NCBI RefSeq assembly: GCF_014203605.1
Contig: NZ_JACHJJ010000006.1
Span: 186,001-250,000, forward strand
Source of the DNA: Thiemannella venezuelensis
GTDB lineage: Bacteria; Actinomycetota; Actinomycetes; Streptosporangiales; Streptosporangiaceae
DNA length: 64,000 nucleotides
Direction of reading: 5' to 3'
Each line of letters starts with the position of its first letter. The stretch's first letter is position 1. The notes beneath the pieces are model-generated. The model ran no database searches. It was not told the origin of the DNA and worked only from the letters and a program-made list of their open reading frames with translations. The position numbers and the translations under genes are program-made. Below, piece after piece: positions 49,258 to 61,135 of the stretch.

Positions 49258-49527
49258 GTGCGTGTCGACCGGCTCGACCGGCTGGTGCTCACCGCCGCCG
49301 CCATCGAGGCGGCGATCGGCTTCTCCGGCCGCGTCCTCGGAATGGAACCGATCACCTTCGGGCGGAGCCGCCGGGCGCCGGCCTTCGGCGACTCGAAGAT
49401 CGATCTGCACGAGGCAGGCCGGGAGTTCGAAATCGAGAGCGGTGTCTCCCGGAGACACCGCGCCCTGACGGCGGCACGGTGGCGATGTCGTGCCGACAGG
49501 CCGATACGGACAGCGAGGCCCGGGTAA
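49258..49527 (+). pseudogene. Truncated VOC (glyoxalase-like) protein
   Basis: From GTG at 49258 the frame encodes the first beta-alpha-beta-beta-beta unit of a VOC protein: DRLDRLVLTAAAIEAAIGF, RVLGMEPITFG and the AFGDSKIDLHEAGREFE strand. Similarity then stops at about 49430. The remaining 30 codons are unrelated, and the second metal-binding module is absent. An inverted repeat CGGTGTCTCC-C-GGAGACACCG (49440-49460) sits at the break. Probably the broken edge of the inserted DUF262/HipA segment. Confidence 0.6.
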
Positions 49528-49591: not shown

Positions 49592-51349
49592 ATGAGCACC
49601 GGTCTGGGCACCCGTCCAAGCGCGACCACCTACGATGTGGAGAAGCTGGTGGGCATGGCCTGGCAGGGTCAGATCCGGGTGCCGCACTTCCAGCGCGGGC
49701 TGCGCTGGGGGCGCGAGGACGTCATCCGGCTGTTCGACAGCATCATCAAGGGTTATCCGATCGGCAGCCTCCTGCTCTGGGTGCGGCCCGCCGCAGCACA
49801 GCGCATTACTTTCGGGGCTCTCCGCATCAACGCCCCGAGACTGGACCACTCCCTCTGGGTGGTGGACGGCCAGCAGCGTGTGACGAGCCTTGCCAATGCC
49901 CTCCACGAGGACGCCGCCAGGGATCCCCGGTTCGCGCTCGCCTACGACCTGCGGGAGGAGAAGCTCGCCCCGCTCCCGGCGATCGCGACACCTCATGTGA
50001 TCCCGCTGCCGACGCTGTTCGACCTACGGCGCGTGCTCACCTGGTTCGCGCAGAACCCCGAGGTCGCCGACCTGCAGGACCGCGCTTTCCACCTGACCGC
50101 GATCATCCGGCAGTATCCGGTCCCCGCCTACCATGTCGAGCAGGAGGACGCCGAGGTCCTGCAGGACATCTTCGACCGGATGAACAACTACGGGAAACGG
50201 CTGAGCCGTGCGGAGATCTTCTCAGCGCTCAACGCCGGACCGGAGGGCACCACGCCCCTGACGCTGGGGGAGATCGCCGAGCATATCGACGAGGATCTGT
50301 CCTTCGGGCGGATCGACAACGATACGGTCTTGTACGCCATCCTCGCCCGCCGCGGTCACGACGTGCAGCGAGAGATCCGCCTGGAGTTCGATGACGAGAA
50401 CCGGCGAGGGGTGAGCGACTTTCCCGGCGAGGACCGTGACGCGGCTTTCCGCGCAGGTGAAGAGGCGCTGCGCGAGGCCGTCACCTTCCTGCGGCAGGAC
50501 GCGGGGGTACCGCACGTCACTCTGCTGCCCTTCCGTTATCTCCTGGTCGTCCTGGCTCGGCTCTTCGGGCACTTCCCTGACCCCGATCCGGCCAACCGCC
50601 GCCTGCTGCGCCGCTGGTTCTGGCGGGCCGCCCTGGTCGGCCCGGAGATCTTTCGGGGGAGCACCACAGGAGCGGTGCGGGCGCTCTGCGCGAAGATCCA
50701 CCCGGGTGACCTCACAGGATCGGTCCAGAACCTGCTGGAGGCGGTGGACCGTCCGGCGCCGCCCCTTCCCGAACTGCGCAGGTTCAAGACCAACGAGGCG
50801 GCCGCGAAGATCACGCTCTGCTCCTGGTGGGAGCTGGATGCCTGTGACCCGACCAGCGGAGACCCGGCGCATATCCGGGATCTCGCCGAATGCCTCATCG
50901 ACCGGCCGACCCCCGCGGATGCCGTGCGGTACATCGTGCCCAGTCGCCAGGTGGCTGTGGAGCAGCGGCTGTGGGCGGCCAACCGGGTCCTGGTGCCGGT
51001 GGTGAGGTACGAGTCGGGCAAGGAGATCGGTCATCACCTGCTGCACTCCCCACTGGGCGAAGAGGACGTGTTCGCTCCTTTCGGTTCCCGGGGATACGCG
51101 AACGGATGGCGCACCATTCTCCGCTCTCACCTCGTCACACCGGAGATGGTGGAACTGCTGCGGCGCGGTGAGATCGAGGATTTCCTCAAGGCCCGGCAGG
51201 AGGCGATCCTCCGTCATCTCGACTCCTTCCTCCACCGGATGTGCGAGTGGGACTTCGAGGACACACCGCCCCTCGCCGAGCTGCTGATGGAGGATCTTCC
51301 CGGCGAGGAGCCCGCCCTCTCCGACGAGGACTCCTATGGCCCTGCCTGA
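49592..51349 (+). CDS. DUF262 (GmrSD N-terminal-like) protein
   Basis: A 585-residue protein with the ParB/Srx-like DUF262 domain found in the GmrS half of GmrSD-type modification-dependent enzymes: VPHFQRGLRWGREDVIRLFD, the DGQQRVTSLANAL loop, and FDRMNNYGKRLSRAEIFSAL. The rest (residues about 270-585) is helical with several Trp and Arg; I see no HNH (DUF1524) nuclease motif, so the usual second domain is missing or diverged. GAGAAAAG precedes ATG 49592. Its last 14 bases overlap the hipA-like start. Third codon positions look less GC-rich than in the flanks, which hints at transfer. Confidence 0.82.
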   Translation: MSTGLGTRPSATTYDVEKLVGMAWQGQIRVPHFQRGLRWGREDVIRLFDSIIKGYPIGSLLLWVRPAAAQRITFGALRINAPRLDHSLWVVDGQQRVTSLANALHEDAARDPRFALAYDLREEKLAPLPAIATPHVIPLPTLFDLRRVLTWFAQNPEVADLQDRAFHLTAIIRQYPVPAYHVEQEDAEVLQDIFDRMNNYGKRLSRAEIFSALNAGPEGTTPLTLGEIAEHIDEDLSFGRIDNDTVLYAILARRGHDVQREIRLEFDDENRRGVSDFPGEDRDAAFRAGEEALREAVTFLRQDAGVPHVTLLPFRYLLVVLARLFGHFPDPDPANRRLLRRWFWRAALVGPEIFRGSTTGAVRALCAKIHPGDLTGSVQNLLEAVDRPAPPLPELRRFKTNEAAAKITLCSWWELDACDPTSGDPAHIRDLAECLIDRPTPADAVRYIVPSRQVAVEQRLWAANRVLVPVVRYESGKEIGHHLLHSPLGEEDVFAPFGSRGYANGWRTILRSHLVTPEMVELLRRGEIEDFLKARQEAILRHLDSFLHRMCEWDFEDTPPLAELLMEDLPGEEPALSDEDSYGPA

Positions 51350-52580
51350 GACCCGGTTCGCCGTTCTCCTCGGCTCCCGGCGTGTCGGGACGCTGCTGCA
51401 GCGAGGAGATCACACGCGTTTCGTCTTCTCCGAGGAGTATCTGGACGATCCTGGACGGGCCATTCTGGGGCTTGCCTTCGAGCAGGACCTGGCCGGGCGG
51501 CACGCGGCGGCGCTGCGGCTACCTCCGTGGTTCTCCAACCTCCTTCCCGAAGGCGTGCTGCGCGACTGGATCGCCACCGACCGCGGGGTGTCGGCCGAAC
51601 GGGAGATGGAGCTCCTGGTACAGGTCGGTCACGATCTGCCGGGAGCGGTGCGAGTGGTCTCCTGTCCGGCCGGTGAGACCGCCGTGCCGTACGATTCCGA
51701 CTGGCCCGAGCCTCCCGCCGACCGGGACGGTCATGACCGCGGCCATCGGGAGCTGCGTTTCTCCCTGGCCGGGGTGGCGCTGAAATTCTCCATGCTGGCC
51801 GCGGACGACCGGCTCACACTCCCGGCGTTCGGGCAGGGCGGTGACTGGATCGTGAAACTGCCCGATCGAACCTACCCGCATGTCCCGCTCAATGAGCACG
51901 CCATGATGCGTCTGGCCGGGCGGGTGGGGATCGAGGTGCCGGAGGTCCGGCTCTACCGGCGCGACGAGCTCGACACCCTGCCCCCTGGCGTATGGCCGGG
52001 GGAGGAGGAGTGGGCTTACGCCGTACGGAGGTTCGATCGCGACAACAGGCGTGGCGCGGTCCACATGGAGGATCTCGCGCAGGTGCGCGGGGTCTATCCG
52101 AACGAGAAGTATCTGGGTAACTACGAGACGGTGGCCGCGCTCGTATACCGGCGCCGTGACATGGCCGCGCTCCGGGAGTTCGCCAGGCGGCTCGCTTTCA
52201 ACGTGCTGGTCTCCAACGGGGACGCGCATCTGAAGAACTGGTCGCTGATCTACCGCGACCCGCGGGCGCCCACCTTGTCGCCCGCCTACGACCTGGTCTG
52301 CACCAGTGCGTACATGGGTCCCGGGGAGACACTCGGCCTGAAGCTGGCCGGGTCGAGGAGATTCGACACGGTCACCGTTCGTACCTTCGAACGTTTGGAG
52401 CGCCGCCTCGGTGCTGCGGGCGCCGGACTTGGTGACATCGTCGTGGACCTGGTGGAGCGGGTTCGTCAGGCTTGGCCTGAGTGTGCCGGACTCCTGGCCG
52501 GCACTCCCGACATCCGCAAGTTCGTGACCGCCAGTATCGAGGCGCGGAGCCGTACGCTGCTGTCCGGCAGACGAGCATAG
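51336..52580 (+). CDS. HipA-like Ser/Thr kinase toxin
   Basis: A 414-residue HipA protein of normal length. The N-terminal coupling subdomain (PPWFSNLLPEGVLRDWIA) is followed by the Gly-rich loop (SLAGVALKFSML), the WIVKLPDR strand, and the catalytic centre NVLVSNGDAHLKNWSLIY and LSPAYDLV, so both acidic residues are present. HipA kinases phosphorylate translation factors (GltX, EF-Tu-type targets) and stop growth. No HipB-like DNA-binding antitoxin is adjacent; the upstream partner is instead the DUF262 protein, with a 14-base overlap indicating coupled translation. Confidence 0.85.
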   Translation: MALPETRFAVLLGSRRVGTLLQRGDHTRFVFSEEYLDDPGRAILGLAFEQDLAGRHAAALRLPPWFSNLLPEGVLRDWIATDRGVSAEREMELLVQVGHDLPGAVRVVSCPAGETAVPYDSDWPEPPADRDGHDRGHRELRFSLAGVALKFSMLAADDRLTLPAFGQGGDWIVKLPDRTYPHVPLNEHAMMRLAGRVGIEVPEVRLYRRDELDTLPPGVWPGEEEWAYAVRRFDRDNRRGAVHMEDLAQVRGVYPNEKYLGNYETVAALVYRRRDMAALREFARRLAFNVLVSNGDAHLKNWSLIYRDPRAPTLSPAYDLVCTSAYMGPGETLGLKLAGSRRFDTVTVRTFERLERRLGAAGAGLGDIVVDLVERVRQAWPECAGLLAGTPDIRKFVTASIEARSRTLLSGRRA

Positions 52581-60934: not shown

Positions 60935-61135
60935 CGGGGCCACCGGCCCGGCCGGCGGAACGCGCGGACCGGGAGCAGCGGGCATCGGCGGAGCCGGACC
61001 GCGGGCGGAGCCGGTGGTTCCCGGGACGGGTCCAGGAAGATCCGTCTCCGTGCGGTGAGGCGGCCTCTCACTACCGGGGGTGCCCGTACCGGCACATTCT
61101 TGTGTTCCCGGTTGATTTCCTGGAGGTGGTGACAG

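Follow-up and report, generated by a model that had tools for sequence, protein, structure and literature searches.

HipA kinases are toxins that are kept off by a partner, and HipA of E. coli phosphorylates an aminoacyl-tRNA synthetase. In HipBA, HipBST, HipH, and other Hip kinases, a complete HipA with its N-subdomain is preceded by an overlapping gene for the HTH protein HipB. Another type of partner is found in HipAD (DS-6 / PDC-M66), where the HipA kinase is combined with a DUF3037/DUF1829 protein. Phage defence by HipAD needs the kinase, which is toxic without the partner (PMC13092281, PMC12548924).

The DUF262 proteins whose function has been worked out are NTPases of defence systems; they detect DNA or a modification of it and then activate an effector (PMC10952713, PMC8565348). 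SspE hydrolyses NTP and turns on its nuclease once phosphorothioate DNA is recognised, and in BrxU nucleotide binding shifts the dimer to a monomer (PMC10952713, PMC8565348). The functions of two motifs, RLFDS in nucleotide binding and DGQQR in hydrolysis, are known from GmrSD and BrxU (PMC8565348). The DUF262 proteins of Menshen and Dazbog are devoid of DUF1524 and work with other effectors (PMC10952713). Both a HipA with a non-HipB partner in defence (HipAD) and DUF262 proteins with non-HNH effectors (Menshen, Dazbog) are thus already known.

The window analysed here is a stretch of 64,000 nucleotides from Thiemannella venezuelensis (contig NZ_JACHJJ010000006.1, positions 186,001 to 250,000). 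It carries a gene for a DUF262 protein followed by a gene for a HipA kinase, and the two very probably make up one toxin-based, probably anti-phage, module that has not been described before. Like HipAD, it consists of two genes, with the HipA kinase accompanied by a non-HipB partner. Unlike in HipAD, this partner is a DUF262 protein without a DUF3037/DUF1829 domain according to Pfam, and the HipA has no M66 match in PADLOC. The complete HipA with its N-subdomain and the overlapping upstream partner gene are shared with HipBA, HipBST, HipH, and other Hip kinases, whereas the upstream partner is DUF262 instead of an HTH protein. Gerdes et al. 2021 list ten organisations of Hip genes (PMC8262856), none of which has the order DUF262-HipA. 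With GmrSD, BrxU, and SspE/DndI, the window protein has the DUF262 domain with RLFDS and DGQQR in common, and its fold matches BrxU over the whole length of the latter. In contrast to these enzymes, it lacks the DUF1524/HNH catalytic residues (RYIVP in place of a DHIYP-type sequence), and a kinase gene lies next downstream. Menshen and Dazbog likewise place a DUF262 gene without DUF1524 alongside a separate effector, but their effectors are OLD-like or other proteins; the NsnA profile (Menshen) matches the window protein weakly.

The candidate system PDC-M55 comprises the ATPase M55A, M55B, and the DUF262 protein M55C, which belongs to the same family and is also without HNH. The PDC-M55C profile in PADLOC scores 186.7 bits against the window protein (best stretch 148-550), a match that is not specific because HNH-bearing relatives also match the profile (269 bits). 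Unlike in PDC-M55, which has no HipA, the gene adjoining the window DUF262 encodes HipA and not an AAA ATPase or M55B. M55A was not found in the genome to which the window belongs, and the assignment to PDC-M55 is ruled out by this missing ATPase. By these scans, DUF262-HipA is not a PADLOC v2 system, and no description of DUF262 next to HipA turned up in the open-access papers searched, a set that excludes preprints and most subscription articles. PDC-M55-like operons of AAA ATPase, M55B, and DUF262 are present at four of the loci collected (L065, L067, L074, L079); their DUF262 proteins are without HNH, and the DGQQR regex matches none of the four.

Layout and genomic setting of the locus

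The DUF262 gene occupies positions 49592..51349 of the forward strand and encodes 585 residues from an ATG start. A Pfam scan places PF03235 (GmrSD_N) at residues 17-212 (E 2.8e-28), and a decayed DUF1524/HNH region forms the C-terminal part. The intact HipA Ser/Thr kinase gene (51336..52580, forward strand) encodes 414 residues with the domains Couple_hipA (PF13657, E 1.8e-20) and HipA_C (PF07804, E 2.1e-47). Both genes overlap by 14 nt at 51336..51349 on the forward strand, as read from the sequence, and this overlap would couple their translation. In the original prediction, a 585-residue DUF262 gene overlapping a complete HipA kinase by 14 bases was described, with which the coordinates and the Pfam domains agree. 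There is no HTH gene between the two, the HipA start falling within the DUF262 gene, and the only trace of an HTH in the DUF262 protein is an HTH_20 match at residues 206-235 that, with 13.8 bits, stays below the Pfam cut-off of 27. A standard HipBA with an overlooked HipB is ruled out by this position of the HipA start together with an HTH domain that never rises above the cut-off. The predicted absence of HipB is thereby upheld.

Upstream of the module, and outside it, lies a truncated VOC/glyoxalase gene (49258..49527, forward strand), which marks the left edge of an apparently acquired stretch. G014, the sole congener compared for synteny, has an intact 129-aa Glyoxalase-family counterpart (Pfam 1.2e-14). 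The window and G014 cease to be collinear at 49431, a point within the VOC gene, and collinearity is partly restored at window position 61022 and then from ~82.4 kb (window numbering). The stretch of >30 kb from 49431 to beyond 64000 is missing from G014, and the DUF262-HipA pair is its first content. From the break at 49431 and the return of collinearity only at ~61 and ~82 kb, the pair is therefore placed at the left edge of this >30 kb stretch. GC3 averages 0.905 (s.d. 0.08) over the window and is lower in both genes, with 0.835 for DUF262 and 0.809 for HipA; the GC contents of 0.672 and 0.677 are likewise lower than the 0.721 of the window, the DUF262 values being computed on the ORF with a longer upstream start. 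Judged from base composition and synteny, both observations fit an acquisition of the stretch. The broken VOC gene beside the pair and the less GC-rich codons, two further points of the original prediction, are both recovered in this comparison.

A second, diverged DUF262-HipA pair is located in the same genome on contig C1. It belongs to a subclade that, in several of the family's genomes, keeps the same chromosomal place next to purD and murA/purC-type genes (L041 on contig C1, L049, L060, L076, and L068); in L068 both genes look decayed. PADLOC matches are few both among 141 neighbours of the pairs and among 141 genes taken from randomly chosen parts of these genomes, and the neighbourhoods are not clearly richer in defence genes than the random stretches. 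A further set of 130 neighbouring genes from named genomes had no matched control.

Recurrence and co-inheritance of the pair

A profile of the HipA-paired DUF262 group was run on 84,980 bacterial and archaeal species genomes, and the best 80 loci were kept. Of the 78 testable loci, 75 have HipA directly downstream of DUF262, intact in 69 and partial or frameshifted in 6; this share of 96% holds for this clade and not for DUF262 proteins generally, as the search profile was made from HipA-paired proteins. HipA is missing downstream in the other three testable loci, and two further loci stop at contig edges. The adjacency, which the original prediction had proposed to check in sequenced genomes, is thus conserved in this clade and not rare elsewhere. 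The pair occurs in Actinomycetota, Pseudomonadota, Myxococcota, Thermomicrobiota, Acidobacteriota, and Ignavibacteriota. Two Azospirillum plasmids carry it as well; there each gene has its own annotation, 'DUF262' for one and 'HipA family toxin' for the other. Among 299 genomes of the order, HipA is next downstream of the top-scoring DUF262 relatives; the occurrence is patchy, with the pair present in ~20 of the 299 and absent from the congener G014. Other neighbours are found beside more distant DUF262 proteins, and none of 13 distant relatives on viral contigs is accompanied by HipA.

The spacing of the two genes is mostly between -17 and +4 nt, with -4 nt being the commonest value, and they overlap or abut in most loci. 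A mirror-tree comparison of the DUF262 and HipA distance matrices over 63 pairs yields r 0.869, with 0.18 as the largest value in 1000 permutations; part of this signal is shared ancestry, and r shows co-inheritance without by itself proving contact. The recurrence across phyla, the spacing, and the mirror-tree rule out that the two genes are chance neighbours. Because the pair travels together across at least six phyla, DUF262 and HipA are almost certainly one functional module.

The DUF262 protein and its lost nuclease

Both nucleotide motifs are present in the window protein, RLFDS at residues 46-50 (49727..49741, forward strand) and DGQQR at residues 92-96 (49865..49879, forward strand). 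Within RLFDS, L47, D49, and S50 are invariant in 77 homologues, and DG[QR][QH]R is found in 99 of 100 proteins of the HipA-paired group. The AlphaFold2 model (pLDDT 91) aligns with BrxU (7p9m) over residues 11-553 with Z 16.1 and a rmsd of 15.6 over 465 residues; with such a rmsd, the domain orientation must differ between the two. SspE and DndI are the next structural matches. As the alignment extends along the whole length of BrxU, we take the C-terminal region to correspond to the DUF1524 nuclease, in the form of a decayed DUF1524/HNH domain.

The former HNH site (50927..50998, forward strand) comprises RYIVP at residues 446-450 and AANRVLVP at residues 462-469, in which the catalytic HH is replaced and the second Asn deleted. 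An alignment with HNH-bearing relatives demonstrates, at the level of sequence, the loss of the catalytic HNH residues: the whole HipA-paired group has lost the HH pair and the second Asn, while HHFFP...N...N is intact in 11 of 11 relatives without HipA directly downstream. Pfam finds no HNH in the window protein, and no other nuclease domain was detected. An active restriction enzyme of the GmrSD/BrxU type is ruled out by the lost HNH residues. The original prediction had seen no HNH motif in the DUF262 protein, which holds in the sense that there is no working site, and neither Pfam nor the alignment reveals a HipB homologue or an HNH domain inside this protein. HNH-bearing relatives at L064, L069, L072, L075, and L077 have a RadC-family gene as neighbour, and type I restriction-modification genes are often close by.

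In a tree of the N-terminal part only, the HipA-paired DUF262 proteins form one group with a support of 99. HipA pairing and HNH loss therefore fit a single origin on that branch. The protein ends in a tail (residues 552-585; 51245..51346, forward strand) with the sequence EWDFEDTPPL and an acidic end. A regex for W-x(2,3)-[ED]-D-x-P-x-L with an acidic tail matches 53 of 100 HipA-paired proteins, compared with 0 of 11 of the HNH type and 0 of 4 of the M55 type. It may be speculated that this tail contacts HipA. Upstream of the DUF262 gene, six relatives have no clear shared element that could be a conserved operator.

The HipA kinase and the position of HipB

The residues S143, K150, K174, D296, N301, and D319 of HipA are invariant in an alignment of 63 paired HipAs. 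The AlphaFold2 model (pLDDT 91) matches E. coli HipA (3tpb) with Z 37.0 and Shewanella HipA with Z 33. At the level of sequence, HipA retains every kinase motif, and the N-subdomain is present as well.

In the nearest HipAs outside the DUF262 set, encoded on alphaproteobacterial plasmids, an HTH gene overlaps the HipA start by a few nt. As this HTH (HipB-type) gene has the same overlapping position, DUF262 occupies the place of HipB. An unbiased HipA_C search over other actinobacterial genomes revealed an HTH gene upstream of most HipAs, and none of the distant HipAs examined from it is beside DUF262. The DUF262-paired HipAs are not cleanly monophyletic, as five alphaproteobacterial HTH-paired HipAs nest inside with a support of 91-95; clean monophyly is rejected on this ground. 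From this nesting, an exchange of partners between HipB and DUF262 seems to have happened.

Proposed mechanism and alternative explanations

The reading favoured here, with some confidence, is a HipA module without HipB, in which a nuclease-dead, NTP-switching DUF262 protein would restrain HipA and release it on a trigger. DUF262 would bind HipA and hold the kinase off in the role of an antitoxin. Judging by GmrSD, BrxU, and SspE, the trigger read by the DUF262 scaffold would most likely be DNA that is foreign or modified. It would drive the NTP cycle of DUF262 and lead to the release of HipA, in place of the activation of a built-in nuclease. The freed HipA would then phosphorylate an essential target, probably an aminoacyl-tRNA synthetase as in E. 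coli, and the ensuing stop of translation would abort phage growth. We infer restraint, trigger, kinase target, and phage role alike. That DUF262 controls the toxicity of HipA, as other partners do, is likely and the better placed part of this proposal; that the module serves against phage or foreign DNA, argued from related systems, has about an even chance. A bolder version is put forward tentatively: a type IV restriction-family sensor of modified or foreign DNA may have lost its nuclease and outsourced killing to HipA in trans, which the NTP cycle of DUF262 would free, and this arrangement may have arisen once with the loss of HNH and spread to at least six phyla. The original prediction of a defence module stands insofar as there is one conserved module, with DUF262 as a possible sensor and HipA as a possible growth-stopping effector; the cutting of foreign DNA by DUF262 finds no support, given the lost HNH catalytic residues.

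Instead of a sensor, DUF262 could be a plain antitoxin that only neutralises, and perhaps autoregulates, HipA in an addiction module for post-segregational killing without an anti-phage role. Its location in HipB's place, the occurrence of the pair on plasmids and within an acquired stretch, and the lack of a clear enrichment in defence islands speak for this. In view of the scattered PADLOC matches and the housekeeping position of one subclade, next to purine and cell-wall genes, it is still a serious rival, even if unlikely on balance. Against it, neutralisation would call for far less than a partner of 585 residues whose NTPase motifs are conserved and whose C-terminus is large and helical, the characterised DUF262 proteins are NTPases of defence systems (PMC10952713), and some copies are stably chromosomal.

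A two-step, restriction-like defence, in which DUF262 blocks or still cuts foreign DNA and HipA is an accessory growth brake, would agree with the fold match over the whole length of BrxU and with the retained NTPase motifs. It is improbable, given the group-wide loss of the HH pair and the second Asn and a DUF262 protein in which no other nuclease domain is detected. Even less probable is a function in regulating an internal process of the cell that has no link to foreign DNA, such as a stress or nucleotide-pool response. The subclade beside purD and murA/purC-type genes is in line with such a function, while the patchy distribution (~20 of 299 genomes of the order, with none in G014), the plasmid occurrence, and the varied flanks argue against it.

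If the module with a restraining, NTP-switching DUF262 is correct, the few controllers of HipA kinases other than HipB gain a new member in the DUF262 NTPase scaffold, and HipA kinases may thereby have a defined trigger. The module would also be a clear evolutionary case of a restriction enzyme that gave up the nuclease it carried and took on a toxin from the adjoining gene instead. For specialists, the surprising part is the decay of the nuclease alongside the gain of a kinase partner. The idea of 'one sensor, interchangeable effectors' is directly testable here, as the same DUF262 scaffold is found variously with an HNH of its own, an ATPase pair (PDC-M55), or HipA.

Variant loci

In six loci (L092, L110, L112, L115, L116, L159), HipA is split or frameshifted and the DUF262 frame is mostly open. 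This looks as if the toxin partner decays first, with sequencing errors as another possible cause. Three Myxococcota loci have a HipA frame that extends for ~250 residues (L149:1844-3841, L154:1899-3896, L160:8685-10661), and by eye this extension resembles a SAM-dependent methyltransferase.
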